Shown: one piece after another, positions 7,888 through 22,737 of the stretch | Numbering within the stretch: position 1 is the stretch's first letter | Layout of the letters: every line of letters starts with the position of its first letter | Assembly (NCBI GenBank): GCA_021734075.1 | Contig: JAIPJW010000007.1 | Coordinates: forward strand, 1 to 50,761 | Direction: 5' to 3' | DNA length: 50,761 nucleotides | Origin: Cephaloticoccus sp. | Lineage (GTDB): Bacteria > Verrucomicrobiota > Verrucomicrobiia > Opitutales > Opitutaceae | Notes under the pieces: generated by a model | The model's database searches: none | What the model was told of the DNA's origin: nothing | Seen by the model: the letters and a program-made list of their open reading frames with translations, nothing else | Translations under genes and position numbers: made by a program

Positions 7888-8932
7888 ACGGGCGCTCCGG
7901 GGCGGCCACTCCGACCGGGTGCCGTTCACCATCTACGAGTGCATGATCCCGCAATGCGACACGGAACGGGCGTTGCGCGACCGGGGGATGTGCATCGTCA
8001 ACCGCCTGCCGGTCTTTCGCATTCACCGGCCGCACGTCAAAACCACCGAGCACACCTGGTGGGTGGACGGATGCCGGTTTACCCGCACCGAGCACGAAAC
8101 GCCCGTGGGCAAACTCAACACCTTGGTCGAGGACGGCGGGTTCACGACCTGGCGACATCAGTTGCTGCTCAAGCGTCCGGAGGACTATGCCGCGATCCGC
8201 TTCTTTCTCAGCGACGAGGTTTACGAACCGGACTACGGGGAATTCGCCCGGGTGCAGACCGCGGGGGCGGGCGACATGATATGCCGGGCCAACTTCGGAC
8301 TCGAGCCGTTGCAGGAGCTCATCTCCGGCGGAGTGATGTCGATGGAGCGTTTCTGTGAGGAGTGGATGGAGCGGCGCGAGGAGGTCTTGGCCCTGTATGA
8401 GATTCTGGTGGAAAACCGCCGCCGGATTTATCCGATCGTCGCGGCCTCACCCGCCGGGCACGCCAATTACGGCGGCAATGTCACTCCCGAGATCATCGGA
8501 CCGCGGGTTTTTGAGGAGTATTACCTGCCGCACTATGCGGAGGCCGCGGAGGTGATGCACCGGCACGACAAACTCATCGGCTGCCATTTTGATGCCAACA
8601 ATCGCATCATTGCCGCCGCCATTGCACGCACGCCGCTCGATTACATCGAAGCCTTTACCCCGGCACCGGACACCGACATGACGCTGGCCGAGGCCCGGGC
8701 AGCCTGGCCGGACAAGGTGCTGTGGATCAATTATCCATCCTCCGTTCATCTGGAAAATGATGCCGTGGTGGCACAGACGGCCCATGATCTGTTGGATCAG
8801 GCCGGAGGGGTGGATGGTCTCTTGGTGGGAATCACCGAAAACATGCCACCGCAGCGCTGGGAAAATAGTTGCAGAGCGATAATGGACGGGCTGAACCGGC
8901 ACGCCCGGGTAAACCCCTGCCTCTACAATTGA
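7865..8932 (+). CDS. UroD-like protein 2
   Basis: A 355-residue member of the UroD superfamily, clearly different from its neighbours. At the metal site it has H241-x-D243 (CHFDAN) and near the C-terminus an ITENMP motif with E325 where MtaA-type proteins have Cys. The start at 7865 (MTPHDRVERAL) fits the family start and overlaps the previous gene by 23 bases; an ATG at 7859 in the same frame is equally possible. Its stop overlaps the next start (TGATG). No corrinoid-binding protein is nearby. Function is likely a one-carbon transfer or a decarboxylation, unproven. Confidence 0.8.
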   Translation: MTPHDRVERALRGGHSDRVPFTIYECMIPQCDTERALRDRGMCIVNRLPVFRIHRPHVKTTEHTWWVDGCRFTRTEHETPVGKLNTLVEDGGFTTWRHQLLLKRPEDYAAIRFFLSDEVYEPDYGEFARVQTAGAGDMICRANFGLEPLQELISGGVMSMERFCEEWMERREEVLALYEILVENRRRIYPIVAASPAGHANYGGNVTPEIIGPRVFEEYYLPHYAEAAEVMHRHDKLIGCHFDANNRIIAAAIARTPLDYIEAFTPAPDTDMTLAEARAAWPDKVLWINYPSSVHLENDAVVAQTAHDLLDQAGGVDGLLVGITENMPPQRWENSCRAIMDGLNRHARVNPCLYN

Positions 8933-9954
8933 TGGCCAGCCCCACGGGAAAATTGTTTCTCGATGCGCTGCATGGTCACCCTGTGCCCAGGGTTCCGGTG
9001 GCCCCCTTGGCGGTGCATTTTTGTGCCCGGGTCGCGGGGATTTCCCTGCAACAGTATACCAGTGATGCTGCGGCGTTGGCCGATGCCGTCATCCTCTACC
9101 ATGAACGCTTCCGGCCCGATGCGGTCGTAATATCGGCCGACACCTGGATCAGTGCCGAAGCCATGGGCGCAAGGGTCGGCTCGTTGGGCGATGACCAGCC
9201 GTGGGGCGGGGTGGGCATGCCCCGCATTCGTAAACTCGCCGAGGTGCGGGCCCTGCCCAGACCGGACCCGGCGCAGCAAGGCCGGTATCCGTTGATGGTG
9301 GAGGCAACGCGGCGCGTGGTGGAGCAAATCGGGCACGAGACAACCGTGGTGGCGTGCTTTGATCAGTTTCCGTTTTCCCTCGCCGCCGCGCTGATGGGAA
9401 TCAATGAGCTGATGCTCGCCCTGAATGACAATCTCGAGTTGGTGAGGACGCTCATGGCGCGCTGTCACGATCAGGCTTTGGCCTATGGTCAGGCCCTGGC
9501 GAACGCCGGAGCGGACGTGCTGACTGGAGGAGACTCACCCGCCGGATTGATCGGTCCAAACCGCTATCGCGATTTGGCCCTGCCGTTTGAACAACGGCTG
9601 ATCGCGGAATTGCAGGCCACGACGGGCAAACCAGTTTCCCTGCATATCTGCGGTGATGCCCGGCCCATTCTCTCCGACATGGCCGGGAGTGGGGCAGACA
9701 TGTTGGAAATAGATAGCCGCACGGATCTGCCCTTTGCCGGTCGCACGGTGGGTCCCCGGATCGCGCTGTGGGGCAATCTCGATCCGGTCGCTTTGCTGGC
9801 ACAGGGAACCCCGGCCGAGGTGCGGGCGACGGCTCGGCAGGCCATTTTGGCGGCCAGGGGGCATCCGCGCTTTGTGCTCGGCTCCGGTTGCACCTTGGCC
9901 GTCGAGACCCCGTTTGCCAACGTCGAGGCACTCATCGCCGCGGCCCACGGTTGA
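8932..9954 (+). CDS. MtaA/CmuA-like zinc methyltransferase-family protein
   Basis: A 340-residue UroD-superfamily protein with the zinc signature of methylcobamide:CoM methyltransferases: H238-x-C240 in SLHICGD and C320 in GSGCTLAVETP. Family knowledge: these enzymes move a methyl group from a methyl-corrinoid protein to a thiol. The start overlaps the previous stop by one base, so all three UroD-like genes are probably one transcript. It is followed after 50 bases by the convergent EamA transporter gene. Of the UroD-like proteins in the window this one best fits an active methyltransferase. Confidence 0.85.
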   Translation: MASPTGKLFLDALHGHPVPRVPVAPLAVHFCARVAGISLQQYTSDAAALADAVILYHERFRPDAVVISADTWISAEAMGARVGSLGDDQPWGGVGMPRIRKLAEVRALPRPDPAQQGRYPLMVEATRRVVEQIGHETTVVACFDQFPFSLAAALMGINELMLALNDNLELVRTLMARCHDQALAYGQALANAGADVLTGGDSPAGLIGPNRYRDLALPFEQRLIAELQATTGKPVSLHICGDARPILSDMAGSGADMLEIDSRTDLPFAGRTVGPRIALWGNLDPVALLAQGTPAEVRATARQAILAARGHPRFVLGSGCTLAVETPFANVEALIAAAHG

Positions 9955-10004: not shown

Positions 10005-10886
10005 TCAGCGCCAGATGAACAACCCGGCCACTCCCGCCACCGCGAGGACAGCGCCGACATAATAGGTGGGCCGCGGTCTCGAGCCCTCGAGCCAAGCCGC
10101 GAAAGGGATGGTGAGCAGAGGTGCGGCTGCGACGATCGGTTGCACAATGCCAGCGGGAGTCGTGCGCAGCGCCCATTGAAAACAGGTTACGCCGAGCACG
10201 GGACCGGTAAGGGCATTGGCCCCGACCCAGGGCCAGGCGCGCCCGGTCGTTGCAGTGCCCGTGGGACGGCGCCACAGGACAAAGAGCACCACCACTGCCG
10301 CGATGAACAAACCACCGAGGGCGCGCTGGTAAGCCGCACTGCCGGGGTCGACCACTTCGTGCCATGCCGCCGCGGTGGCGAAGGCCTTGCGGCTGATGAC
10401 GGCGCCGATCCCCTGTCCAAGTGACGACAACAGTGCCCACGCGACACCGGCCGTCCGCTGTGGTGCGGAGGCCCGGGGCAGACTGGCCGGCAACAAACCG
10501 ATGACAATGCCGGTGAGCGTGAGCACAACGCACGCAATCTGGGCCGGCGAGAGTCGGGTGCCCAACCAGGTCCACTCGATCGTGCCGGCGACGATGGCCG
10601 ACCCGCATTGCACGATCAGGGTGGAAAGATTGGAGCCCAACCGGGGGAGTGATTGAAACATGGCGACTCCGCCAAGGCCGAAGCCCACCATGCCGCCCAG
10701 GAAAAACCAGGTGAAGGCGATGCCACCGGTGCCACGTCCGGCCAGATGGGCCCAGAGTCCCAGCAACAAAGTGGCGACCAGCAGGCGGTAGAAATTGGCC
10801 CGCAGACTGCCCAGGATCATCGCCGCCCTTCGGGCGTAGACCGGGGTGACGGCAAAGAAGAGCAGGGTGCCAATGGTGCCAAGCAT
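10005..10886 (-). CDS. EamA/DMT-family transporter
   Basis: A 293-residue polytopic membrane protein with about ten hydrophobic helices in two EamA-like halves joined near residue 140. The N-terminus (MLGTIGTLLFFAVTPVYARR) starts in helix 1 and the last helix ends GLFIWR. DMT-family carriers export or import small metabolites such as amino acids or sugars; the substrate is unknown. It starts 10 bases after the TonB receptor stop, so the two are probably co-transcribed and may handle the same compound across outer and inner membranes. Confidence 0.85.
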   Translation of the reverse strand: MLGTIGTLLFFAVTPVYARRAAMILGSLRANFYRLLVATLLLGLWAHLAGRGTGGIAFTWFFLGGMVGFGLGGVAMFQSLPRLGSNLSTLIVQCGSAIVAGTIEWTWLGTRLSPAQIACVVLTLTGIVIGLLPASLPRASAPQRTAGVAWALLSSLGQGIGAVISRKAFATAAAWHEVVDPGSAAYQRALGGLFIAAVVVLFVLWRRPTGTATTGRAWPWVGANALTGPVLGVTCFQWALRTTPAGIVQPIVAAAPLLTIPFAAWLEGSRPRPTYYVGAVLAVAGVAGLFIWR

Positions 10887-10896
10887 GGGGAGACAA

Positions 10897-12999
10897 TTAA
10901 AGTTTCAGTTCGAGTCCGAGGGTGAAGCTGCGGCCCACCCCGGGCAAAAAGATTGTGGTGGCGGTTGGATTGCGTGCCAGATCGAGCACCCCGGCCGTGC
11001 TGGCAATATGTTGCCGATCGAAAATATTGCGCACGTTGACGTAGACCAGCACGCGATCGCCCGGCCGCCAGCCCAGGCGCACATGGGTCAAGGAGTGGCC
11101 CTCGTAATCCATCCGATTGGCATGATCTACGGGGATGCGACCCGCCACCCAATCAGTGGTGATGGTGGCGAGGAATCCCCGCGCATGGGCATAACTCAAT
11201 TCGACATTACCGGTGTGGGGTGGTGCTCCGGCGAGCCGGTTGTTGCCGTAGACCGGGTCGTCATCAAATTGGAAATGTCCGAGGGTTGAGGTCACGCCCA
11301 GTGACCCGCGATGGGAACCTTGCGACCAGTGCCAACGGAGTGAAGACTCGAGGCCCTCGTGCCGGGTCCGATCGGCATTGACCGCCCCCCGGGGCAGACC
11401 GGAGGCATCGGCCAGGCGCAGGATCTCGTGGCGCCACGCGGCGTGGTAAGCGGTGATATTCCAGTCGAAGGATCCGTGTGTGCCGCGGACCCCAACTTCA
11501 TAGGTCACGGCGGATTGTGCCAACAACGATCGGGGCGTGAGGCTGAGATTGGGGTAAGCGCCCTGCACCCCGATCAGGTCATCGAAGGTCGGGGGTTCGA
11601 TGCTGCGGGAGATGGCGGCATGAAATGAGAACCGGTTATCCGGTGACCACAGCAGAGCTCCCCGGGGGGAGAAATCCTCAAAATCGAGTGATGATTGCAG
11701 CATGGGACTCGGATTGCGCCCGGTTGCCTGGCGTTTGCCATGGAGCGCCGTGAACCCGGTGCCAAGGGCCAGGGTGGGTCGCAGCCATACGACATCCTCG
11801 ATACTGAGGGCTGCCGTGTCAGCCTGGGTCTGGTAAGCACCAAAGCGGGCGCCGCGTTGGCCGGAAACGTTGAGGTAGCGATCGACTTGGTCATTTCCCG
11901 TGGTGCAGGTTAGGCGGGTGAGGATATGGTGGGTGATCGGGCCGAGATTCAGGTGCTGTGAATAGGTGACATGGCCGCTGAGTGTCCGGTCATCGAGATC
12001 GGTCTCCCCATTGGCTTGCAGCTGATAAAAATCATCATGCAACTGCAGCCAGGCCAGCCCCACGGCCAGATCTCCCCCGGGAGTGTGGGACTTGAGTTGT
12101 GCGGCGGTGTGGATCACGGATGAATGGCGCCGGGGTTGATCACGTGGCACCGCTGCAATGACGGAACGCGGACTGGCGCGAGCCTCACTGAGGGTGAGGG
12201 GACCGGGCACATCGTAATCCACGCTGGCGGCATAGGCGGATACCTCCAGCTGGGTGGTGGGGGAGAGGGGTTGATGCGCCGCGAGTTTCAGGGCGGTCCG
12301 GCGTTGCGCGCTGTGTTCGCGCCACCCATCGGCTTGCTGAGTGGAAACCTCTGCTTGCATGGGCAGGCCACCGGGGGAGGTCGTGCCCAGTTGTGCGCGC
12401 AGGACACCATAGCTTCCGCCGTCGGTGCGCAGCAGGTTGCCGCCGGGAACACTGGGCGTGAGGGACACCGCGTTGATGACTCCGCCCAGAACCGCCGGGG
12501 TCAGTGCCATGTGGAGGGTGCCACGGTAGATTTCAATCCGGGGAAAGAGCTGGGGATCAAACAGTCCGCTGTGAAAGGCGCCATCGGCCCGTGCCAGGGG
12601 CAATCCATCAATCAGCAGCGCGACCCCGCGGCTGGTCGGTGCACTGTCCAGTCCGGAGCCACGAATGGAAAGCCGGGGGGGCTCGAACCCACCGAAACTT
12701 TCCTGCAGCATCACTCCCGGGGTTTGGCGCAAGGCCTCGGCCAGGGTCGTAATGCCCCGCCCGGACCAGTCGATTGCGGTGATCACGCTTGAGGGACCGA
12801 GAGCGGAGGCGAAATAATCGCTGCTCGCGGTGAGTCCGTGCTTCGCGCCGGTTTCCGCGATGATCCAAGGTGGCATTACATGGACGTTGTCCTCCTGCGC
12901 GCCGACCTTCATCCGGGCTGGTCCCGCAACCATCATGGACAAGAGCAGCCAACGCAGGAGCAGGCCACCCGGTTGGATAGGTGGTCGCTTATTTTTCAT
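10897..12999 (-). CDS. TonB-dependent outer-membrane receptor
   Basis: A 700-residue receptor: signal peptide to about residue 35, a plug domain with LAEALRQTPGV, RLSIRGSGLD and RIEIYRG motifs (residues 80-160), then a beta-barrel of about 500 residues ending GRSFTLGLELKL. The C-terminal residue is Leu rather than the usual aromatic. A TonB-box-like stretch may be VHVMPPW near residue 39. It imports a siderophore, vitamin, metal complex or sugar using proton-motive force; the ligand cannot be read. It starts 14 bases after the [FeFe] hydrogenase stop and precedes the EamA gene by 10 bases. Confidence 0.9.
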   Translation of the reverse strand: MKNKRPPIQPGGLLLRWLLLSMMVAGPARMKVGAQEDNVHVMPPWIIAETGAKHGLTASSDYFASALGPSSVITAIDWSGRGITTLAEALRQTPGVMLQESFGGFEPPRLSIRGSGLDSAPTSRGVALLIDGLPLARADGAFHSGLFDPQLFPRIEIYRGTLHMALTPAVLGGVINAVSLTPSVPGGNLLRTDGGSYGVLRAQLGTTSPGGLPMQAEVSTQQADGWREHSAQRRTALKLAAHQPLSPTTQLEVSAYAASVDYDVPGPLTLSEARASPRSVIAAVPRDQPRRHSSVIHTAAQLKSHTPGGDLAVGLAWLQLHDDFYQLQANGETDLDDRTLSGHVTYSQHLNLGPITHHILTRLTCTTGNDQVDRYLNVSGQRGARFGAYQTQADTAALSIEDVVWLRPTLALGTGFTALHGKRQATGRNPSPMLQSSLDFEDFSPRGALLWSPDNRFSFHAAISRSIEPPTFDDLIGVQGAYPNLSLTPRSLLAQSAVTYEVGVRGTHGSFDWNITAYHAAWRHEILRLADASGLPRGAVNADRTRHEGLESSLRWHWSQGSHRGSLGVTSTLGHFQFDDDPVYGNNRLAGAPPHTGNVELSYAHARGFLATITTDWVAGRIPVDHANRMDYEGHSLTHVRLGWRPGDRVLVYVNVRNIFDRQHIASTAGVLDLARNPTATTIFLPGVGRSFTLGLELKL

Positions 13000-13013: not shown

Positions 13014-14759
13014 TCACCGCTTGTAAAGCGGCCGGGCGGTATAGCGGGTATGCAGCAATTCGTGGGCGCGGGCGCCCAACGGTTTGCCCAGAAAATCATC
13101 GTATAGGCGGATCACTTCCGGATTCTCATGTGAGCAGCGCGTCGTGCGTTCGCGATCATCGGTGTAGAGGCCGGCGATGCGAAGTTTGCGACGATCGTTG
13201 TCGACTCCATATGGTTGACCCCCACCGCCGATGCAACCGCCTGGGCAGGCCATGACTTCAATGAAGTGGTAGGGCAACTCCTCCTGGTTTTGACGGGCCT
13301 GCCGCACCCGCTCGAGGACGGTTTCAACGTTGGCGAGACCATGGGCCACGGCGACGCGGACCTCGGTCCCACCAACGTTGATCTTACCTACCTTCACACC
13401 TTCGAGGCCGCGAACTACTTCGACCTCTACCTTTTCCAATTTCACGCCCGTGGCGTAAAAATGTGCCGTGCGCAACGCGGCTTCCATTACGCCGCCCGTC
13501 GCGCCGAAAATCGTGCCCGCACCCGAATATTCGCCCAGAATGGAGTCCGGCTCGGCGTCCGGCAGATTGAGAAAGTCGACGCCGGACTGCTTGAGCATGC
13601 GGGCGAGTTCCCGGGTGGTGAGCACGACATCCACGTCCTTGTGGCCGGAGGCATACATTTCCTCCGTGCGCCCGATCTCATATTTTTTCGCCGTGCAGGG
13701 CATGATGGAGACCATGAAGAGCTTGGCCGGGTCGAGCTTGAGTTGCTCGGCATAGTAGGTCTTGGCGAGCACCCCGAGCATTTGTTGCGGTGACTTGGCC
13801 GTGGAGAAGTTGTCGATGAAATCGTAGTGATTTTTCTCCATGAAGTCGGTCCAGGACGGACAGCAGGAGGTGATGAGGGGCAGTGGTCCGCGTTTGTGCA
13901 CAAAGCGCTCCACAAACTCGCTAGCCTCCTCGACGATGGTGACATCGGCGGAAAAGTTGGTATCGAAAACCGCCTTGAAACCCAAACGGCGCAGGGCGGC
14001 GTAGATTTTCTTTGTCAGGTTGGTGCCCGGCGGGAGACCGAAGGCTTCACCGACGGTCACCCGCACCGAAGGCGCGATCTGCACCACGCAGATTTTCTCG
14101 CGGTCATGCAGCGCCTCCCAGACGGACGGGGTTTCATCATTTTCCACAATGGCGCCGGTGGGGCAGTGCGCGGAGCATTGGCCGCACTTGACGCAGGGGG
14201 ATTCGGCCAGGGTGATGTCACCGGCGGGGGCCATCCGGGTGTTGAAGCCGCGATCGAGGAACGAAAGGGCCCAGACATTCTGCACCTCCTGGCAAACCTG
14301 CACGCAGCGCCCGCATTTGATGCACTTGGTGAACTCGATGATGATGGAGCCGGTCGAGCAGTCGGGCGGAGTGTCCTTCACATGACGCTTGATCGACTCC
14401 ATCGGAATATTGAAGTCGGCCGCGAGGGTTTGCAGCTCACACTCGCCATTGCGTCCGCAGGTCAGGCAGGCTTGCGGATGGTTGGACAGGATGAGCTCCA
14501 GCGTGGCCCGCCGGACATCCACGATCTCCCGGTCATGCGTGGCAATCTCCATGCCCTCCTCGATCGGCGTGCAGCAGGCGCGAATGAGCTTGTTGCCTCC
14601 CTTATTGCGCACGATGCAAATGCCGCAGGCGGCCGTGGCCAGCAGGTCCTTGTGTTTGCACAAGGTCGGGATCTTCACCTGGGCCAGCCGGGCGGCATCC
14701 AGGATACTGGTCCCCTCGGGCACCTGCACTTCGATCTGGTTTATACGGGCGGTGATCAT
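13014..14759 (-). CDS. hydA: [FeFe] hydrogenase catalytic subunit (HydA/HndD-like)
   Basis: A 581-residue group A [FeFe] hydrogenase. N-terminal [2Fe-2S] ligands C34, C45, C48, C62; His-ligated [4Fe-4S] H94, C98, C101, C107; two ferredoxin clusters C146/149/152/156 and C189/192/195/199; then the H-cluster domain with L1 TSCCPSW (298-304), L2 MPCTAKKYE (353-361) and L3 EVMACPGGCIGGGGQP (501-516). All ligands are present, so it should reduce protons or oxidise hydrogen once matured by HydEFG, which are not in this window. The start at 14759 overlaps the upstream stop as ATGA. It lacks the extra C-terminal [2Fe-2S] domain known from Thermotoga maritima HydA. Confidence 0.93.
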   Translation of the reverse strand: MITARINQIEVQVPEGTSILDAARLAQVKIPTLCKHKDLLATAACGICIVRNKGGNKLIRACCTPIEEGMEIATHDREIVDVRRATLELILSNHPQACLTCGRNGECELQTLAADFNIPMESIKRHVKDTPPDCSTGSIIIEFTKCIKCGRCVQVCQEVQNVWALSFLDRGFNTRMAPAGDITLAESPCVKCGQCSAHCPTGAIVENDETPSVWEALHDREKICVVQIAPSVRVTVGEAFGLPPGTNLTKKIYAALRRLGFKAVFDTNFSADVTIVEEASEFVERFVHKRGPLPLITSCCPSWTDFMEKNHYDFIDNFSTAKSPQQMLGVLAKTYYAEQLKLDPAKLFMVSIMPCTAKKYEIGRTEEMYASGHKDVDVVLTTRELARMLKQSGVDFLNLPDAEPDSILGEYSGAGTIFGATGGVMEAALRTAHFYATGVKLEKVEVEVVRGLEGVKVGKINVGGTEVRVAVAHGLANVETVLERVRQARQNQEELPYHFIEVMACPGGCIGGGGQPYGVDNDRRKLRIAGLYTDDRERTTRCSHENPEVIRLYDDFLGKPLGARAHELLHTRYTARPLYKR

Positions 14760-16747
14760 GACGAAACCTCCTGGGTGACTGCGCTCGGGGCGGTGGGTTT
14801 GGCCGCGGCGCGGGCGGCGCCACTGATTTTGCGGGCGTAACTGGGGCCGCCCTCGATGTAGGCTTGGTATTCGCCACCGAAGTAGCGCAAGGTGGAGAGC
14901 ACGGGATTGGGTGCGGTTTGACCGAGACCGCATAGGGAGGCCTTCTGCATGGCGTGGCAGATGCGATTGATAACGGCGATGTCACCGGCGTTGCCCCGGC
15001 CCCGGGAGATGCGATCGAGGATTTGCTGGAGTTGGTAGCCGCCAATCCGGCACGGGGCGCATTTGCCACAGGACTCGTCCACGCAGAAGCGCAGGTAGAA
15101 TTTGGCCACATCGACCATCGAGTCGCCCTGATCCATGACGAGCATGCCACCCGAACCCATGATGGAACCAAGCTCCTGCAGGGTTTCGTAGCTGATCGCG
15201 GTGTCCAGCAACGTCTCGGGAATAACCCCGCCGGAGGGACCGCCGGTCTGGACGGCCTTGACCGTCTTGCCATTGAGCACGCCGCCACAGACATCAAAGA
15301 CTATTTCGCGCAGGGTCGTGCCCATGGGCACCTCGACCAGCTGCGCATTGCGCACCTTGCCGGTGACGGCAAACACCTTGGTGCCCTTGGAGGTGGCGGT
15401 GCCATGGCTGGCATACCAAGCGCCACCCTTGAGCAGGATCGCGGGAACGATGGCCAGCGTTTCAACATTGTTGATGGCGGTGGGCTTGCCCCAGAGACCC
15501 CGCACGGAGGGATAGGGGGGACGCGGGCTCGGGCTGCCGCGCTTGCCTTCGATGGAGGCGATCAGGGCAGTTTCCTCGCCGCAGACGAAAGCCCCGGCGC
15601 CGAGGCGGATCTTGGCGTCGAAATTGAAACCACTGCCCAGGATGTTGCGACCGAGCAGACCGAGCTGGCGGGTCTGGTCAATGGCCCGCTGGATGCGATC
15701 AACCGCCCGGGGATACTCGGCCCGGATGTAGAAATAGCCCTGGGATGCCCCCATGGCGTAGGCCGCGATCATCATGCCCTCGAGCACGGCGTGGGGATCA
15801 CTTTCCAAAACACTGCGATCCATGAATGCCCCGGGGTCTCCCTCGTCGCCATTGCATATGACGTAACGTTGATCCGCGGGTTGGGCGCGGGTGAGCTGCC
15901 ATTTCAACCAGGTGGGAAAACCGGCGCCGCCCCGACCCCGCAGGCTGCTCGCCTTCATTTCGGCGAGAACTTGTTCGGGACTCATTTCAAACAACACCTT
16001 GGCGAGTGCTTGATACCCCTCGGCTTGTTGCAGGTAGTCATCCGCACTCTCGGGATCCACCTGACCGCAATGCCGCAATACGATCCGCACCTGCTTGTCC
16101 GGGGTCTGCCAAATGAGATCATCCAGCACCTTCCGCCCCTCAATCGACTCGCTCACGATGCGTGCGACGTCGGGGGCCAGCACATTGGTGTAGGTGACGG
16201 CGTCGGGCAGCAGCTGCACCACGGCCCCTTTGTCGTAAATGCCCATGTCGAGCGCCCGGACGACCTGCACCCGGTCATCGAGCCCGCGGCGCTTGAGTTC
16301 CTCCTGAAATGAAAACTGAAAGAACTCGGTCTTGTTGCCGCTGTCTCCGCCCGTGTCGCGGACGAGTATGTGCGTGACCGGGGCCGCAAGGGTGAGCCCG
16401 CGATTGCGCGTGGCAATAACGTGGTCCTCCAAGAGATGACCGGTCCTGACATGCCCGTCCAACAATGCCGGAACCAGCTCGGGGGCCAAGTTGCCGTAGA
16501 GGATGCGGGGCAACCCGGCGGATTTTACTTCTATGACCGGGTCGGCAAATGAGTAGCCGATCGAGCCGGTGCGCAGCAGGGCAAAGCCCAGGCGTTGTTC
16601 AACCCGGACGTGTTCCAAAGCCTGTGCGAGCGACTCAGCGCCCGCGGCAATGCCACCGGTGTCCAGTTGCACGCGAATCCATTCCGCGGGTTCGGAGGGA
16701 GATTTTTGGGCCAAGGCGGCGAGGTCTTCCCGGGTCAGGGTTTTCAT
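14756..16747 (-). CDS. hydB: NuoF-like NADH subunit of the hydrogenase (HydB-like), with altered N-terminus
   Basis: A 663-residue diaphorase subunit passing electrons between NADH and the hydrogenase. The NuoF core is intact: FMN loop GRGGAGFPTW (271-280), NADH-site GAGAFVCGEETAL (383-395), N3-type [4Fe-4S] ligands C560, C563, C566 and C606. Upstream are two tandem thioredoxin-like domains (about 22-110 and 125-215). In the usual [2Fe-2S] version the first would read C-x4-C and later CxGxC-like; here IRVQLDTGG and RTGSIGYS have no cysteine, and the second copy (ILVRDTGGD, ALDMGIYD) has none either. The usual C-terminal 2[4Fe-4S] ferredoxin domain is missing. 4-bp overlaps on both sides show tight coupling. 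Confidence 0.92.
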   Translation of the reverse strand: MKTLTREDLAALAQKSPSEPAEWIRVQLDTGGIAAGAESLAQALEHVRVEQRLGFALLRTGSIGYSFADPVIEVKSAGLPRILYGNLAPELVPALLDGHVRTGHLLEDHVIATRNRGLTLAAPVTHILVRDTGGDSGNKTEFFQFSFQEELKRRGLDDRVQVVRALDMGIYDKGAVVQLLPDAVTYTNVLAPDVARIVSESIEGRKVLDDLIWQTPDKQVRIVLRHCGQVDPESADDYLQQAEGYQALAKVLFEMSPEQVLAEMKASSLRGRGGAGFPTWLKWQLTRAQPADQRYVICNGDEGDPGAFMDRSVLESDPHAVLEGMMIAAYAMGASQGYFYIRAEYPRAVDRIQRAIDQTRQLGLLGRNILGSGFNFDAKIRLGAGAFVCGEETALIASIEGKRGSPSPRPPYPSVRGLWGKPTAINNVETLAIVPAILLKGGAWYASHGTATSKGTKVFAVTGKVRNAQLVEVPMGTTLREIVFDVCGGVLNGKTVKAVQTGGPSGGVIPETLLDTAISYETLQELGSIMGSGGMLVMDQGDSMVDVAKFYLRFCVDESCGKCAPCRIGGYQLQQILDRISRGRGNAGDIAVINRICHAMQKASLCGLGQTAPNPVLSTLRYFGGEYQAYIEGGPSYARKISGAARAAAKPTAPSAVTQEVSS

Positions 16748-17412
16748 GCGGCTACCTCCTTGCCGGCCTTGAGGGAGGCCAGATGACCGACGACGTCGGT
16801 GGTTTTGACATGACCGCAGGTTTTACCGTCCACCACCATGGCCGGCGCCATGCCGCAACAGCCGATGCAACGCACCGTGTCGAAGTGAACCTGCCGGTCA
16901 GGGGTGGTCTGGCCCTCACTGATGCCGAGCTGGGTGCGCAATTCGTTGATGAGATCGCCCGAGCCTTTGAGGTAACAGGCGGTGCCGTTGCAGACGGTGA
17001 CTTTGTGCGCCCCGGGGGGCTGCAGCTTGAAATAGTGGTAGAAGGTGATGACCTCGTAGATGCGGGCGAGCTTCACCCCGAGCTCACGGGATAATTCCAT
17101 GGCCACTTCGCGGGGCACATATCCATGCTGATTTTGAATCGCATGGAGGATCATGATGAGGTTGCCCTCCTCATTGCGCCAGTGCTCCACGTGTTGCTGC
17201 ACATCGCGCCGGATCGTGGAATCGAGTTTGCCCTGGATACGGCGCAGGCGCTCCAGTTTTACCTCCAGGAGCCGGGCGATTTCGTCGGAAATATGCCGGG
17301 GGATAAAGCCGTGTTCCTTTTCCGCCTTTTCGAGGATCTCAATAAGAGCGGACTCATCGGCATTTTTGAGGCTGATTGCTTCGGGCCCACTGGCTGAAGA
17401 ATATTTTTTCAT
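16744..17412 (-). CDS. hydC: NuoE-like [2Fe-2S] subunit of the hydrogenase (HydC/HndA-like)
   Basis: A 222-residue thioredoxin-like ferredoxin, first gene of the hydrogenase operon. The [2Fe-2S] ligands are visible in TVCNGTACYLKGS and VRCIGCCGMAP. The N-terminal helical region occurs twice: residues about 22-60 (ILEKAEKEHGFIP, LLEVKLERL) resemble about 84-125 (ILHAIQNQHGYVP, ELGVKLARI), so the protein is longer than the usual 150-170 residues. With HydB and HydA it forms a soluble trimeric NAD-linked hydrogenase in Thermotoga gene order. An AT-rich 245-base intergenic region separates it from the divergent gene at 17658; I found no convincing Rex or FNR box there. Confidence 0.9.
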   Translation of the reverse strand: MKKYSSASGPEAISLKNADESALIEILEKAEKEHGFIPRHISDEIARLLEVKLERLRRIQGKLDSTIRRDVQQHVEHWRNEEGNLIMILHAIQNQHGYVPREVAMELSRELGVKLARIYEVITFYHYFKLQPPGAHKVTVCNGTACYLKGSGDLINELRTQLGISEGQTTPDRQVHFDTVRCIGCCGMAPAMVVDGKTCGHVKTTDVVGHLASLKAGKEVAA

Positions 17413-17657: not shown

Positions 17658-18947
17658 ATGGCTTCCATTCACACGCTGCACACGTGCCATATGCATACCC
17701 CGCGCCCTGAGTCCCCCGGCAGCGTCAATTGTCAGCTGCTATATTTCACCACTTACAGCGTGACTGACGATGCCAAGGTGCTCGCAGCCATCACCAACGC
17801 CTGGTCCAATCATCCCGAGGGCGCGAGTCTGGCGCGGATCGACCGTGCGACCGGTGCAATGGAGCCCCTCGCGATTTTTCCGGGACCGGCGATGCAGGCC
17901 TATCCCTATTTTGCGCGCCCCCGTTCCGACAATCCCGCGGAAGACTATCTGTTCAATGGGACCGTCGCCACCCATGGGCTCAACAAGTCCAGCCCTTGCC
18001 TGCATCCTGCGACCGGCAATTTGTTTTTTGTGTGGGGTCGTGAGGACGGTTGGGGAGTGCTGGATTGCGTCAATCTGCGTGACGGCCAGCGCCGCACATT
18101 GCTGGAGATTCCGCCGGAGCGTTGCGTGGGCTACACCCATCTCGATGCCGCGGGTGAACATGTGTTGCTCAGCCTGATGGACAGCAGGATTTTGGGTTTT
18201 GGTGAACGCCGTAAAAGCAATCAGGAGATGTCGGAAAACTATGCGAAGTTTGGCCTCACCACCCAGCTGGCGGAAGTAGAGGTGGCGACCGGCAAACTCA
18301 CCGTGCGTTGGGAGGAACCGGCGTGGGTCACGCATGTGCAGTATCATCCGACCCGCCGCGACATCGTGCTCTACAACCACGAGTGGACCTGGCCGCTGGG
18401 CGTGGAACGCATCTGGCTCAAGCGCGATGGCGAGGAATGCGTCAAGGTGCGCCGGCCCGGTCGTGAGATTCAATTCCGGGTTTCGCCCGATCTGTCCACC
18501 GACGACGTCGCCCACGAAGTATGGCAGGAAAATGGTGAAGCCGTCATCTATCATGGTGTGCGGTGGGACGCCCCGGGCCACCCGGAACAATTTGTGGGTC
18601 GGGCCCCCGTGGACGGCAGTCGACCGCTGCAGGAAATTGCGATTCCACGCGACCGTCCTTCCTTCTACGGGCACTTCATCCCGAGCCGGGCAGGGGATTT
18701 TGTGATCACCGATGCCGTGGCGAATGAGAAAGGTCTCGCGCAACGCAAGGGCAACCTGATCTCGCGCCTCAACATGGACTGGGTCAACGGCACGATGGAG
18801 GTGGTGCCGTTGTGCGAGAGCAACACCTCGTGGCACACGCAGGACAACCACCCGCATCCCGTGCCCACGCCCGACCAGAAGGAAGTGCTGTTCACCTCGG
18901 ACCGTGACGGGGTCCGCCGAATCTATTCAGTGCCGGCGACAGTTTGA
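17658..18947 (+). CDS. Oligogalacturonate lyase-like (PL22-type) beta-propeller protein
   Basis: A 429-residue, probably cytoplasmic, seven-blade propeller (TolB-like repeats). The C-terminal motif QDNHPHP gives Q395, H398 and H400, with the same spacing as the manganese ligands I recall for PL22 oligogalacturonate lyase (Gln, +3 His, +5 His); H339 in FYGHF may be the fourth. HVQYHPT (226-232), NHEW (240-243) and HEVW (286-289) also resemble the family. It would split unsaturated di- or trisaccharides of uronic acids. The N-terminal 20 residues are not family-like, so the start may be ATG at 17691. It leads a gene set with Gfo/Idh/MocA and GH172-like enzymes. Confidence 0.75.
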   Translation: MASIHTLHTCHMHTPRPESPGSVNCQLLYFTTYSVTDDAKVLAAITNAWSNHPEGASLARIDRATGAMEPLAIFPGPAMQAYPYFARPRSDNPAEDYLFNGTVATHGLNKSSPCLHPATGNLFFVWGREDGWGVLDCVNLRDGQRRTLLEIPPERCVGYTHLDAAGEHVLLSLMDSRILGFGERRKSNQEMSENYAKFGLTTQLAEVEVATGKLTVRWEEPAWVTHVQYHPTRRDIVLYNHEWTWPLGVERIWLKRDGEECVKVRRPGREIQFRVSPDLSTDDVAHEVWQENGEAVIYHGVRWDAPGHPEQFVGRAPVDGSRPLQEIAIPRDRPSFYGHFIPSRAGDFVITDAVANEKGLAQRKGNLISRLNMDWVNGTMEVVPLCESNTSWHTQDNHPHPVPTPDQKEVLFTSDRDGVRRIYSVPATV

Positions 18948-18971
18948 ACTTAGACTGGAATGTGAGCGGAG

Positions 18972-20015
18972 ATGGACCCAGACTTTCGACCCCTCATGAA
19001 GAAAACACGATTCGTATTCATTGGTTTTCAACATCCCCACATTTGGGATCTGGTGGCCCGGGCCCGGGCCCATCCCGCCATCGAGGTGGTTGCCTGTTGC
19101 GAGGAGGATGCCGCCACCCGGGCCAAGCTGGCGGGCGACCCGCGGGTCACCATCACACACTCCGATTACCGGGCCATGTTGGCCGAGGTGCCGAGTGACG
19201 TCGTGGTGGTGGGGGAGTGGTTCGCGAAGCGCGGCCGCGTGGTGATCGACAGCCTCACGGCCGGGCGTCATGTGCTGGCGGACAAACCCATGTGCACGAC
19301 CCTGGCCGAGCATGACGGGATCGTGCGATTGGCGACGGAGAAAAAACTCACCGTCGGCATGATGCTCGATATGCGTGATTCCGGCGTCTTCGTCAAAGTG
19401 CGGGAAATGGTTCGTGCGGGTGAGATCGGGGCCGTGCAGGCGGCCTCCCTGGGAGGGCAACACCCCTTGCTGCCGGGTGTGCGTGCCAATTGGTATCACG
19501 AGGAAGGGAAACACGGGGGCTCGATCAACGACATTGCGCTGCACGGGCTTGATCTCCTGCCGTGGATCACCGGGCTGGAATTTTCCCGCGTGACGGCGGC
19601 GCGTGATTGGGCGGTTGGCGTGCCGGAGGATTCACATTTCAAGAATGCGGGTCAGTGCATGCTGGAGTTGTCCAATGGCGCCGGCCTGATGCTCGACGTG
19701 TCCTACGTGGCGCCGAGCAGCCAGGGGTATACCCTGCCGATGTATTGGCGTCTCACGCTCTGGGGGAGCAAGGGCGTGCTCGAGGCCAGCCTGACGGCAA
19801 AGGAAATTTCCCTGCACATGGAAGGCGAGAAAACCGGCCGCACCGTGCCGATTGGCGTGCCCAACCCGGGTGGCTATCTTGAAGCCTTTCTGGGCGAGAT
19901 GCGGGGTAAACCCTGTAACGGGCAGCTGACCCAGGCCGAAATATTCCGCGCCAGCTACGTGACGCTCAAGGCCCAGGAAGCCGCGGATCATGGGCTGCTT
20001 AATGTGGAACTGTGA
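18972..20015 (+). CDS. Gfo/Idh/MocA-family oxidoreductase
   Basis: A 347-residue NAD(P)-dependent sugar or inositol dehydrogenase-like protein. The Rossmann N-terminus is FVFIGFQHPHIWDL, an unusual form where GxGxxG becomes G-x-Q-H-P-H; the conserved lysine motif is ADKPMC, equivalent to the EKP motif, and HGGSINDIALHGLDLLPW is the family GG-DxGxHxxD segment. It would oxidise or epimerise a carbohydrate. The start may be at 18996 (MKKTRF), which begins directly at the Rossmann strand. It follows the PL22-like gene by 24 bases and precedes the GH172-like gene by 27, so the three probably form an operon. Confidence 0.85.
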   Translation: MDPDFRPLMKKTRFVFIGFQHPHIWDLVARARAHPAIEVVACCEEDAATRAKLAGDPRVTITHSDYRAMLAEVPSDVVVVGEWFAKRGRVVIDSLTAGRHVLADKPMCTTLAEHDGIVRLATEKKLTVGMMLDMRDSGVFVKVREMVRAGEIGAVQAASLGGQHPLLPGVRANWYHEEGKHGGSINDIALHGLDLLPWITGLEFSRVTAARDWAVGVPEDSHFKNAGQCMLELSNGAGLMLDVSYVAPSSQGYTLPMYWRLTLWGSKGVLEASLTAKEISLHMEGEKTGRTVPIGVPNPGGYLEAFLGEMRGKPCNGQLTQAEIFRASYVTLKAQEAADHGLLNVEL

Positions 20016-20042
20016 TTGGTCCGGGTCCCAGCCGATTTTGCC

Positions 20043-21020
20043 ATGAACCCGGAAGACATATGTCGGATGCGACCCTACAAGTCCCGGATGCAAAACAGCC
20101 TCTGGCACTGGGATGCCCATCCGGAGTTGCCCGATTTGCCTCCTCACGGTCGAGTCGAACTGGGCCGGTTCGATGGTCCCGGGATTGTGCGCACCATTCA
20201 CCTGACACTGAATATCACCGGCGATGATCGCACCGCGTTGTTGCGCGGGGTATTCCTCAAGGTGTGTTACGATGGACACGACCATGCCTCCGTGTATGCC
20301 CCGGTGGGGGATTTCTTCTGCGATTCATTCGCGAGCGAATCCAGCCACTATGCCAGTATCGTGATGGCCAAGCGGCCGACGAATTCCCTGTTCTGTTACC
20401 TGCCGATGCCCTTCCGGACGGGAGTCGAGCTTTCGCTGGTGAATACCACCGCACAAACCGTCACCGGCTATGGGTATGTGACCGCCGATGCAGTGCCGGC
20501 TTGGTCGGAGGAATACGGGTATTTCCACGCCAAATGGATCGACCGCAGGGTGACACTTCCGGACGAGGAGGTGCCATTGTTGGACACCCGAGGGCGCGGG
20601 CAGTTTGTCGGTTGCCACCTTACCGCAGTGAGCAGCTGCCCCCATTTTGCCCGAAACGAGGGCATCTGCGAAGGCAATGACGAATTCTTCGTGGATGGTG
20701 CCCTTGAACCGACCTGCAACTACCTGGGCACGGAGGATTTTTTTGGCTTCAGCTGGAACTGGCGTCATCTCTGGACGGATGATTATTCCGGCACCACCTT
20801 CCTGAGTGAAACCGGCGGGCAAACCCGCCTGGCGTGTTACCGGTTTCTGCTCAACGATCCGGTCCGGTTTTCCACTGCACTGAAGGCGCGTATCAATTAC
20901 CAGCACGAGATCAACAACCCGTTTCTTCAGAAGGCCCAAATGGAAGGTAACGGGCAGGTGCAGTTCGGAATTGTCGCTTATTGGTATCAGGATACTCCCG
21001 TCGAGGCCACAAATGTTTAA
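20043..21020 (+). CDS. GH172/DUF2961-family protein
   Basis: A 325-residue DUF2961 protein, the family now placed in glycoside hydrolase family 172 with fructofuranosidase and arabinofuranosidase members. Typical blocks are GPGIVRTIHLTL, a VGDFF segment, YLPMPF, FVGCHLTA, EFFVDG and LGTEDFFG, the last two giving acidic residues of the active site. No signal peptide, so it acts in the cytosol unless exported otherwise. The frame is open to a TTG at 20016 directly after the previous stop; I prefer ATG 20043. Its context with PL22-like and Gfo/Idh/MocA genes suggests sugar release from an oligosaccharide. Confidence 0.82.
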   Translation: MNPEDICRMRPYKSRMQNSLWHWDAHPELPDLPPHGRVELGRFDGPGIVRTIHLTLNITGDDRTALLRGVFLKVCYDGHDHASVYAPVGDFFCDSFASESSHYASIVMAKRPTNSLFCYLPMPFRTGVELSLVNTTAQTVTGYGYVTADAVPAWSEEYGYFHAKWIDRRVTLPDEEVPLLDTRGRGQFVGCHLTAVSSCPHFARNEGICEGNDEFFVDGALEPTCNYLGTEDFFGFSWNWRHLWTDDYSGTTFLSETGGQTRLACYRFLLNDPVRFSTALKARINYQHEINNPFLQKAQMEGNGQVQFGIVAYWYQDTPVEATNV

Positions 21021-21053
21021 TCAGAAAGCTCCAACCCCAATACCTGCCCCATC

Positions 21054-21482
21054 ATGAACGCATCCCCGAAAAAGAAATCATTCACCCGCCTCTTCCCTGC
21101 CATCGCCCGATATTTGTTGGGTCTGCCCCTGCTGGTTTTCGGTCTCAACGGCTTCCTGAACTTTATTCCGCAACCCGAAGTGGCGATGCCCGAGGGGGCC
21201 ATGGCTTTTGCGGCGGCGTTGATGAATACAGGTTACATGATGCAATTGATCGGGATTACTCATCTGTTGGTTGGTCTGATGTTGGTCACAAACCGGTTCG
21301 TGCCCTTGGCCCTCACCCTGTTTGCGCCCTTCATCGTCAACAGCATCGCCTTTCACTTTTTCCTCGAACGTTCGGGTCTCGTGATGGCCGGCATCTTCCT
21401 CTTTTTCGAACTCTATCTGGCTTGGAAATATCGTCACGCCTTTGGGCCCATGCTGGCGGCACGGGCCCAGCCGACGGAGTGA
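21054..21482 (+). CDS. DoxX-like membrane protein
   Basis: A 142-residue protein with four hydrophobic helices, at about residues 18-38, 58-80, 84-104 and 106-126, and a basic N-terminus (MNASPKKKSFTR). FGLNGFLNFIPQP in helix 1 and the THLLVGLML segment in helix 3 are typical of the DoxX/SURF4-like family, small inner-membrane proteins of unclear role, sometimes linked to redox or thiosulfate metabolism. It starts 33 bases after the GH172-like gene. No quinone or metal ligand is obvious. Confidence 0.75.
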   Translation: MNASPKKKSFTRLFPAIARYLLGLPLLVFGLNGFLNFIPQPEVAMPEGAMAFAAALMNTGYMMQLIGITHLLVGLMLVTNRFVPLALTLFAPFIVNSIAFHFFLERSGLVMAGIFLFFELYLAWKYRHAFGPMLAARAQPTE

Positions 21483-21570
21483 GGGGTATTCACTGAAGCG
21501 CATGTCACTTTTCAGGTGACCTATGAACGGGACATTGCGGAGCCGGGAAAACTCGCGCAACTTCCCCGCC

Positions 21571-22737
21571 ATGAAATTCATTTTTTCCGTGCTGCTCGGA
21601 TGCTGTGCCCTAGGGTCCCCGCTCAGGGCGGAACTTGCCCACCTTAACGACCTGGCGGAAATCGTCCCGGGAGAGATCTCGGGACATGTGGATTCCGAGT
21701 TGGCGAAGTTTCAGGCGGAAACTGGGATCAATGTGCTCGTGCGGTTTCACGCGACGTCACCCACCGAGGCCGAGGACAATGCGCCCGGAGTTTACATGCG
21801 GACGTTATCGGCGAAGCTGGGGGTTTTGGAAAAGGGCGTGCTCATCGTTTATTTTGCGGACGTGGATGAATGGCGGGTTTGGATCGGGAACGAGCTGGCG
21901 GCTGAGTTTGCCGGTGAACCCGGCACGGCGGCCGAGCTGACCAAGAGCGGCGCGATGCATGAAGCCAAGGAAGGATGGCTCAATGATGTTATCGGGACGT
22001 TTGAACATGAATGGAAACGCGGTCAAAAAATGTCCCATGATGCTCCCTCACCGAGCACGCGAGTGGGGTTTCAGGCGGATGGTATCGTGGCGAGTTTAAT
22101 GGAGATTTTTCTGGATGCGAGGGATACGCGGGTGGGCCTGCCGCTTGATCTCGCGTTTATGTCGAAAGAGGCAGATCCGACTGCCTCGCCCGCAATACTT
22201 AAAGGCCCTTTGGAAACCCGCGACGAGAATGGATGCACCCTGCTGATGCAGGCGACCCATCGCAACGATGTTGAGTTGGCCCGGCAGCTCATCGCTGACG
22301 GTTCCGATGTGAACGCGCGCGATGCCTTGCAGGATACTCCGTTCCTTTACGCGGGAGCGGAAGGGCGTTTGGAGATCCTAAAACTCACCCTCGCGCACGG
22401 TGCCGACCTCGCGAGCGTCAACCGTTTTGGTGGCACAGCCTTGATTCCGGCGGCAGAGAAAGGTCATTTAGGCAACGTGATTGAGTTGTTGAAGACCGAC
22501 ATCGACATCAACCATGTGAACAACCTCGGCTGGACCGCACTCTACGAGGCGGTGATGCGTCCGCGCCAAGGCAGTGAAACCTATCGCGCCATCGTCCAAG
22601 CCCTGTTGGATGCCGGAGCCGACGAGACCATTGCGGACAAACAGGGCCGCACGCCGGCGCAACGGGCGCACGAAATTGGCAATGACGATCTTGCGGGGTT
22701 GATCAGTGCCGCCCGTATACCCAAGGTCACCCCATGA
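21571..22737 (+). CDS. Exported TPM-domain protein with ankyrin repeats
   Basis: A 388-residue protein with a signal peptide (MKFIFSVLLGCCALG), a TPM/YgcG-type domain over about residues 25-165 (FQAETGINVLVRF, VLEKGVLIVYF), and four to five ankyrin repeats in the C-terminal half (NGCTLLMQATHRNDVELA, VNARDALQDTPFLYAG, GTALIPAAEKGHLGNV, LGWTALYEAV). The TPM domain is usual in periplasmic membrane-associated proteins; ankyrin repeats bind partner proteins. LLGC resembles a lipobox but the hydrophobic part before it is short. The start at 21571 is chosen for the signal peptide; a further ATG lies at 21523. Overlaps the sulfatase start by 4 bases. Confidence 0.78.
   Translation: MKFIFSVLLGCCALGSPLRAELAHLNDLAEIVPGEISGHVDSELAKFQAETGINVLVRFHATSPTEAEDNAPGVYMRTLSAKLGVLEKGVLIVYFADVDEWRVWIGNELAAEFAGEPGTAAELTKSGAMHEAKEGWLNDVIGTFEHEWKRGQKMSHDAPSPSTRVGFQADGIVASLMEIFLDARDTRVGLPLDLAFMSKEADPTASPAILKGPLETRDENGCTLLMQATHRNDVELARQLIADGSDVNARDALQDTPFLYAGAEGRLEILKLTLAHGADLASVNRFGGTALIPAAEKGHLGNVIELLKTDIDINHVNNLGWTALYEAVMRPRQGSETYRAIVQALLDAGADETIADKQGRTPAQRAHEIGNDDLAGLISAARIPKVTP

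Follow-up and report, generated by a model that had tools for sequence, protein, structure and literature searches.

A cluster-poor HydB with a fused HydD-type domain in [FeFe]-hydrogenase-type complexes of Opitutales, Kiritimatiellae and Spirochaetales

The hydCBA locus and its HydB subunit

The stretch of DNA analysed here (the window: 50,761 nucleotides of Cephaloticoccus sp., Opitutaceae, contig JAIPJW010000007.1 of assembly GCA_021734075.1) carries the genes of a HydABC-like hydrogenase complex in the order hydC, hydB, hydA, with hydB in the middle and ATGA overlaps at 14756-14759 (hydA) and 16744-16747 (hydC) (Table 1). HydA scores 785.9 bits with NF040763 (cut-off 765) and 501.8 bits with TIGR02512 (cut-off 406), and it has the H-cluster ligands and pocket residues of a group A [FeFe]-hydrogenase; the list of pocket residues and their CpI numbers are those we take to be the accepted ones. 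The subject of this report is HydB, whose core binds flavin mononucleotide (FMN) and reduced nicotinamide adenine dinucleotide (NADH).

Table 1. Features of the hydCBA locus and its surroundings (window coordinates; residues are those of HydB unless stated).
Feature	Position	Strand	Remarks
hydA, group A [FeFe]-hydrogenase catalytic subunit	13014..14759	(-)	full H-cluster ligand set
hydB, fused HydD-HydB subunit, 663 aa	14756..16747	(-)	Fe-S cysteines confined to B1 site
Domain 1 (residues 22-112), HydD-type thioredoxin-like, no cysteine	16412..16684	(-)	hhalign to stand-alone HydD 99.8%
Domain 2 (residues 123-215), HydB N-terminal thioredoxin-like, cysteine-free	16103..16381	(-)	B5 lost
FMN/NADH-binding, SLBB and four-helix core (residues 218-633)	14849..16096	(-)	motifs GAFM, GAGAF, GGPSG, bifurcating-type
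B1 (N3) [4Fe-4S] motif CGKCAPC (residues 560-566)	15050..15070	(-)	PF10589 108.2 bits
Cys606, fourth B1 ligand	14930-14932	(-)	
Cysteine-free tail (residues 634-663)	14759..14848	(-)	place of 2[4Fe-4S] domain in bifurcating HydB
hydC, NuoE-like subunit	16744..17412	(-)	C1 [2Fe-2S] cysteines 141, 146, 182, 186 kept
HydC N-terminal extension, about 65 aa	17218..17412	(-)	weak likeness to HydC's own helical bundle
TonB-dependent receptor	10897-12999	(-)	downstream of hydA
EamA transporter	10005-10886	(-)	downstream of hydA
URO-D family protein, oligogalacturonate lyase-like protein, GFO/IDH/MocA oxidoreductase, sulfatase	8869-9954, 17658-24158		further neighbours

HydB is cluster-poor and begins with two cysteine-free thioredoxin-like domains. 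The thioredoxin-like fold is present in both and the [2Fe-2S] cluster cysteines are absent from both; residues 1-218 contain no cysteine at all, so the ligands of the B5 [2Fe-2S] cluster are missing. The core matches PF01512 and PF10589 and retains the B1 cysteines 560, 563, 566 and 606, while the C-terminus is a 30-residue tail without cysteine, and the 2[4Fe-4S] domain that would carry B3 and B4 is thus absent. The B2/zinc site, whose ligands in A. mobile HydB are described as Cys438, His525, Cys531 and Cys536 (PMC8880783), is gone as well: Ser543 and Tyr630 stand at the first two positions and nothing matches the last two. A preliminary description of this DNA, made from the letters alone, had already recognized the two stripped N-terminal domains, the intact FMN/NADH core with its N3 cluster and the missing C-terminal ferredoxin domain, and on all three it holds.

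The complex shares its subunits, FMN core, B1 and the motifs GGPSG and GAFM with the HydABC/BfuABC enzymes of T. maritima (7p5h), A. mobile (7t2r) and T. kivui (8a6t), with scores of 562.5 bits for HydA against 8a6t_A and 597.3 bits for HydB against 7t2r_B. It differs from them in lacking B2/zinc, B3, B4 and B5 and in having a HydD-type domain fused in front of HydB. The N-terminal extension of HydC is present in only part of the clade described below, and second weak BLAST pieces appear in HydC comparisons.

Origin and conservation of the double domain

A search of 387 genomes of the phylum with a profile of the double domain returned, among the matches listed, at least 14 genomes with matches above 230 bits and no stop, and weaker matches with stops between domain 1 and domain 2. 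In all 16 such loci examined (L115-L130), a separate gene whose product contains GTCG and TGCMGLC lies directly upstream of hydB, and the N-terminus of HydB bears cysteines. Four whole loci (L142, L143, L144 and L148) have the order hydC-hydD-hydB-hydA and a HydB with the C-terminal 2[4Fe-4S] domain; their HydA is 58-62% identical to that of the window. The HydD of these tetramers (L115-L130, L142-L144 and L148) is homologous to domain 1 of the window and differs in being a separate, cysteine-bearing protein.

We compared both domains with profiles of 16 HydD and 15 HydB N-termini using hhalign. Domain 1 matched HydD at 99.8% (149.5 bits) and the HydB N-terminus at 97.6% (62.2 bits); domain 2 matched the HydB N-terminus at 98.3% (73.7 bits) and HydD at 80.4% (34.9 bits); the two domains matched each other at 34.6% (25.7 bits). 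By profile, domain 1 is therefore a fused HydD-type [2Fe-2S] subunit and domain 2 is HydB's own N-terminal domain, and the two together form a HydD-HydB fusion. The same comparison rules out that the N-terminal domain was duplicated internally, as the preliminary description had proposed, since domain 1 is closest to HydD and not to domain 2.

Two other arrangements involve these domains. In L145, L147 and L175 a HydD-type domain is the only N-terminal domain of HydB and is fused straight to the core. L131 and L133-L138 have a second double-domain type, in which the cysteines and the C-terminal domain are kept, the gene order is B-A-C and domain 1 has the motif GSATCE[NH]AAG; it forms a separate branch in the tree and so represents an independent fusion. 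These loci probably correspond to BfuB sub-type III (double B5) as described by Zheng and Huang (2024), which, like the window HydB, has two thioredoxin-like domains in one chain, whereas the candidates differ from the window in their cysteines, C-terminal domain, domain 1 and gene order.

The clade of stripped, fused HydB is represented by 50 distinct sequences: the window, 12 from genomes of relatives (57 searched, the source genome included; figures from this search hold among the matches listed) and 37 from a pattern scan of genome contigs. The scan used DTGGIAAGA and [AGR]VTY[TA]NVL[AT]; members with neither pattern are missed. It gave 46 loci, from which eight sharing a HydB with the relatives' loci were dropped and the broken L100 was left out. 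These 46 loci come from Opitutaceae, Opitutae, Opitutia or Opitutales, Verrucomicrobia, Kiritimatiellae, Spirochaetales or Spirochaetaceae, the PVC group, one Akkermansiaceae and entries named only "bacterium"; the hosts are soil and water bacteria. Genome G023 (L038) carries both a hydCBA cluster of the ordinary bifurcating type and one whose HydB has the stripped double domain; the two are complete and lie in tandem.

Loss of the cluster ligands extends across the clade. The number of cysteines in residues 1-218 ranges from 0 to 4, with 13 of the 50 sequences having none, and the former cluster loops have at most one per domain in all 50 and none in either domain in 30. Among the 45 sequences that reach the C-terminus, all but L068 (see below) are free of cysteine beyond residue 634 and have no B2 histidine (44 in each count); at the position of A. 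mobile Cys438, 38 have Ser and 7 have Cys. The B1 motif is kept in 45/45 members that reach it, and the order hydC-hydB-hydA is found wherever the locus is long enough to show it, again except in L068.

The metal-free domains are maintained by purifying selection. In 10 chosen clade pairs (some with synonymous rates, dS, above 1), the ratio of nonsynonymous to synonymous substitution rates (dN/dS) was 0.08-0.35 for domain 1, 0.08-0.20 for domain 2, 0.02-0.10 for the core and 0.02-0.18 for the HydA H-domain. Two pairs outside the clade were included, of which L133/L135 gave 0.09 and 0.05 for the two domains and L147/L179 was not comparable there.

A maximum-likelihood tree of concatenated gene sets (68 of 77, 1138 columns, LG+F+R5) was read with the group L038b/L053/L176/L150 as outgroup. 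Left out for want of a long HydA were L035, L049, L050 (two), L051, L052, L068, L099b and L132, and truncated HydB never entered as gene sets. The double-B5 type branches first, followed by the HydD-type tetramers, then L173, L174 and L175, then L048, and finally the fused clade. The preliminary description had asked whether the cysteine-free double domain defines a clade, and it does: the group is monophyletic with 100% support, nested among HydB with full cluster sets. L079 is the first branch within it, with a support of only 73%. The nearest relatives combine domains in different ways. L173 and L174 have a separate cysteine-bearing HydD; their HydB retains the C-terminal 2[4Fe-4S] domain, including the B2 histidine and the cysteine pair, but has an N-domain already without cluster cysteines (in L173, one cysteine lies elsewhere in it); in L175 the HydD-type domain has its cysteines and the C-terminal domain is absent; L048 has a single cysteine-bearing N-domain and no C-terminal domain. 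Loss thus passed through several mosaics, and these relatives supply the order in which clusters were lost.

Proposed function and the missing maturases

The reading we favour, with a probability of roughly 0.55, is that HydCBA is a bifurcating HydC-HydD-HydB-HydA tetramer reduced to an NADH-linked, ferredoxin-independent complex with structurally kept, metal-free domains. At the level of sequence, the fusion, the ligand loss, the conservation and the intact H-cluster site are established; from these we infer ferredoxin independence and a structural role of the metal-free domains. The ancestor would have been an electron-bifurcating tetramer of the [FeFe]-hydrogenase type. HydD would have been joined to the front of HydB, and the two thioredoxin-like domains, the B2/zinc site and the ferredoxin domain at the C-terminus would have been deleted or deprived of their metal ligands. 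A single wire would remain, from NADH through FMN, B1 and the HydA clusters to the H-cluster, flanked by C1 of HydC as a side cluster, so that NADH and H2 would be expected to exchange electrons without ferredoxin. With B1 as its sole cluster, HydB would be expected to contain about 4 Fe, compared with 14 in T. maritima HydB (PMC9499530). The two metal-free domains may serve structurally, capping or locking HydC and the FMN domain.

Two published models of bifurcation bear on this proposal. In one, the low-potential branch runs over C1-B2-B3-B4, with B3/B4 as the proposed ferredoxin site (PMC8880783); in the other, a mobile B3/B4 domain brings electrons to ferredoxin (PMC9499530). Of the first path C1 alone remains here and the carrier of the second is gone, which favours ferredoxin independence. 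The HydB of S. wolfei, which has neither the N-terminal [2Fe-2S] nor the C-terminal [4Fe-4S] clusters, is described as working without ferredoxin (PMC5626996). The complex is most likely NADH-linked and ferredoxin-independent, and the variant of HydABC stripped of every ferredoxin-branch cluster is, judged by its sequences, real, conserved and new.

Several observations weigh against this reading. In the open-licence literature we found no biochemistry of the clade. The HydB of L068 (5323-7425 of a metagenome contig) has the fused cysteine-free domains together with the His, the Cys pair and a C-terminal 2[4Fe-4S] tail; a GltD-like gene (named from sequence) follows its hydB in place of hydA. 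The others, a shortage of maturases and the residues near the FMN, belong with the alternative readings and are given with them.

HydG (TIGR03955) exceeded its curated cut-off in only 1 of 55 clade genomes, a total composed of a set of 18 (0/18), G022 (none) and a set of 38 (1/38; no completeness values), minus two overlaps. HydE was found in 0/18 clade genomes tested and HydF (E<=1e-40) in 0/12, a set with no Kiritimatiellae members; the H-cluster may therefore not be made. The maturase-negative genomes include the single contigs G011, G021 and G314 (the HydF result applies to G011 and G021). G011, which we provisionally take to be Opitutus terrae, is a contig of 5,957,605 bases in which PF02906 gave one match. 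In the source genome (3.53 Mb, 91.3% complete), the best HydF match was 81.7 bits (cut-off 325.6), and HydG and HydE gave no match. Each maturase search had one control genome over the cut-off, T. maritima in the case of HydF.

The sole HydG-positive member is L079 (L172), where hydCBA is followed by hydE, hydG, aspA and hydF, the three maturase genes over their equivalog cut-offs and aspA over its subfamily cut-off; aspA is known to occur next to hyd operons (PMC11736057). HydG was found in 9/10 other HydA-bearing genomes of the phylum and in 5/6 non-clade HydA genomes of a class sample in which HydA itself is rare (16/384 genomes). Genomes of the four whole tetramer loci have HydG in 3/4 (not G302) and HydE in 4/4. 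HydG is also absent from G031 (Opitutaceae, ordinary HydABC), G023 (both kinds) and G050 (64% complete), and its lack is thus partly a feature of the lineage.

One alternative is that most members are no longer hydrogenases: HydA would carry only the [4Fe-4S] part of the H-cluster, and the complex would be an NADH-linked electron-transfer module for another partner. The maturase counts, single-contig genomes among them, are what speaks for it. Against it, 46 clade HydA (L079 included) agree at 17 of 18 residues surrounding the H-cluster, and the 18th is Ser or Ala, as in the outgroup; the H-domain has the low dN/dS given above; L079 combines this enzyme with a complete maturase operon; and Opitutus terrae is called capable of hydrogen production (PMC4288041, citing Chin et al. 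1999 and 2001). We regard this alternative as unlikely, with perhaps one chance in a handful.

The same facts allow a tentative proposal, rated slightly above that alternative and still doubtful: the clade's [FeFe]-hydrogenases in Opitutales, Kiritimatiellae and Spirochaetales may be activated without HydE, HydF and HydG, the maturases having been lost after the L079 branch with the pocket still under selection. The [2Fe] subcluster would then be built or imported by another route. In clade members from Opitutales, genes for the TonB receptor and the EamA transporter are often found after hydA. They occur in 19/52 and 16/52 clade loci, respectively, and in none from Kiritimatiellae, the PVC group or Spirochaetales; a HydA match is present in 46 of these 52 loci, that of L068 being short. 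Searches of the open-licence literature listed no title or abstract dealing with an Opitutaceae [FeFe]-hydrogenase or with bacterial genomes that carry HydA but lack HydEFG.

Two further ideas were rejected. Some clade genomes give sub-cut-off HydG hits of about 140-206 bits over about 300-360 model positions; these hits are probably ThiH, since the same is seen in G012, which has no HydA, and a diverged ThiH-like HydG is dismissed accordingly. When the open frames of 53 loci were clustered, the clusters present in 49 to 53 of them were, as far as could be told, hyd genes and overlapping frames, which leaves no conserved neighbour as a replacement maturase; smaller clusters were identified only in part.

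The source genome has three more NuoF-like genes besides the window hydB (names are our reading of the sequences). One adjoins NuoD- and NuoE-like genes and another resembles a formate dehydrogenase beta subunit. The third, on contig 22 (L035), is part of another [FeFe]-hydrogenase cluster, whose HydB of 1014 aa has a C-terminal extension of flavin adenine dinucleotide/NAD(P) type, like sub-type I of Zheng and Huang; this cluster, too, sits in a genome where the HydE, HydF and HydG searches found none over the cut-off.

Two marks of electron bifurcation

Losey et al. 2020 (PMC7311640) describe bifurcating beta subunits by Ala or Glu at 232 with Met at 234, a Phe near the FMN and GGPSG at 427-431 (T. 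maritima numbers), and the non-bifurcating type by Thr or Ser at 232, Lys, Ser or Ala at 234 and no GGPSG. The window HydB, with GAFM (Ala307 and Met309), GAGAF and GGPSG, has the bifurcating-type residues and lacks the non-bifurcating signature. So do its relatives: Ala307/Met309 in 50/50, GAGAF in 48/48 and GGPSG in 45/45 of the clade members covering each. The position of the Phe is uncertain: along the T. maritima chain deposited as 7p5h, the printed number, 367, falls by our count on a Val, and the Phe of its GAGAF, the motif that holds Phe387 in the window, is number 312.

By cluster content, with no N-terminal [2Fe-2S] and no C-terminal [4Fe-4S] cluster, the window HydB is of the S. wolfei type. 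The HydB of that non-bifurcating, NADH-dependent Hyd1ABC is 407 aa (PMC5626996), too short for the two extra domains seen here, and has the non-bifurcating residue signatures (PMC7311640), whereas the window has the bifurcating ones. As read from these alignments, cluster content of the non-bifurcating kind and signature residues of the bifurcating type conflict within one natural family. The "simpler, non-bifurcating NADH hydrogenase" of the preliminary description accordingly stands in part: the ferredoxin-facing clusters are gone, while the residues of Losey et al., one of the three uncertain, are of the opposite kind.

A complex that still bifurcates, with its bifurcating-type FMN site and with ferredoxin docking elsewhere, for example on HydA or HydC, is favoured by these motifs, present in all members covering them, and by the nesting of the clade among HydB with full cluster sets. 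We consider it improbable: B2, B3, B4 and B5 are missing, and in the account that Zheng and Huang gave in 2024 (PMC11406978), bifurcation appears to need every one of B1-B5; the proposed ferredoxin site at B3/B4 is absent; and the S. wolfei HydB, likewise without the C-terminal cluster domain, uses no ferredoxin. The BfuB sub-type II of the same account is also reported to be non-bifurcating and without B3, B4 and B5. It is described as missing those domains and is placed in Hydrogenedentota, Acidobacteriota, Actinomycetota and Planctomycetota (PMC11406978), a comparison made by description only; neither Hydrogenedentota nor Acidobacteriota is among the taxa of the 46 pattern-scan loci.

Just as improbable, in our estimate, is a new binding role for the metal-free domains, with a nucleotide, partner protein or regulator as ligand, in place of a purely structural one. 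The preliminary description had raised such a role for a duplicated scaffold, of which the duplication has fallen away. In favour of binding, DTGGIAA[GD]A, which stands beside the helix at the former cluster-loop position, is invariant in 13/13 sequences obtained without a motif search (window included, among the matches listed), and D131, T132, R164, D167, Y171 and T185-Y186 near that loop are invariant too. Evidence of a ligand or partner is lacking, and the invariance of the motif in the 46 scan loci is partly by construction, because it was one of the two search patterns.

Sequencing error or gene decay can be dismissed: the stripped double domain occurs in open frames of 50 distinct homologues drawn from many assemblies, which refutes hidden cysteines in the window, the doubt raised by the preliminary description; dN/dS is below 0.4 in 10/10 clade pairs, and damage is limited to two single members (L100 HydB and L076 HydA, incomplete or broken).

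For the reduced, NADH-linked complex that we favour, cluster content disagrees with the signature residues; the clade is thereby a natural test, separating two proposed marks of bifurcation, the residues near the FMN (Losey et al.) and the extra Fe-S clusters (Zheng and Huang). That HydG is nearly absent, and that HydE and HydF were not found in the genomes searched for them, with the H-cluster pocket conserved, would point either to another maturation route or to a hydrogenase-like complex put to other use. The complex may thus test both what splits electrons and how such enzymes get assembled.

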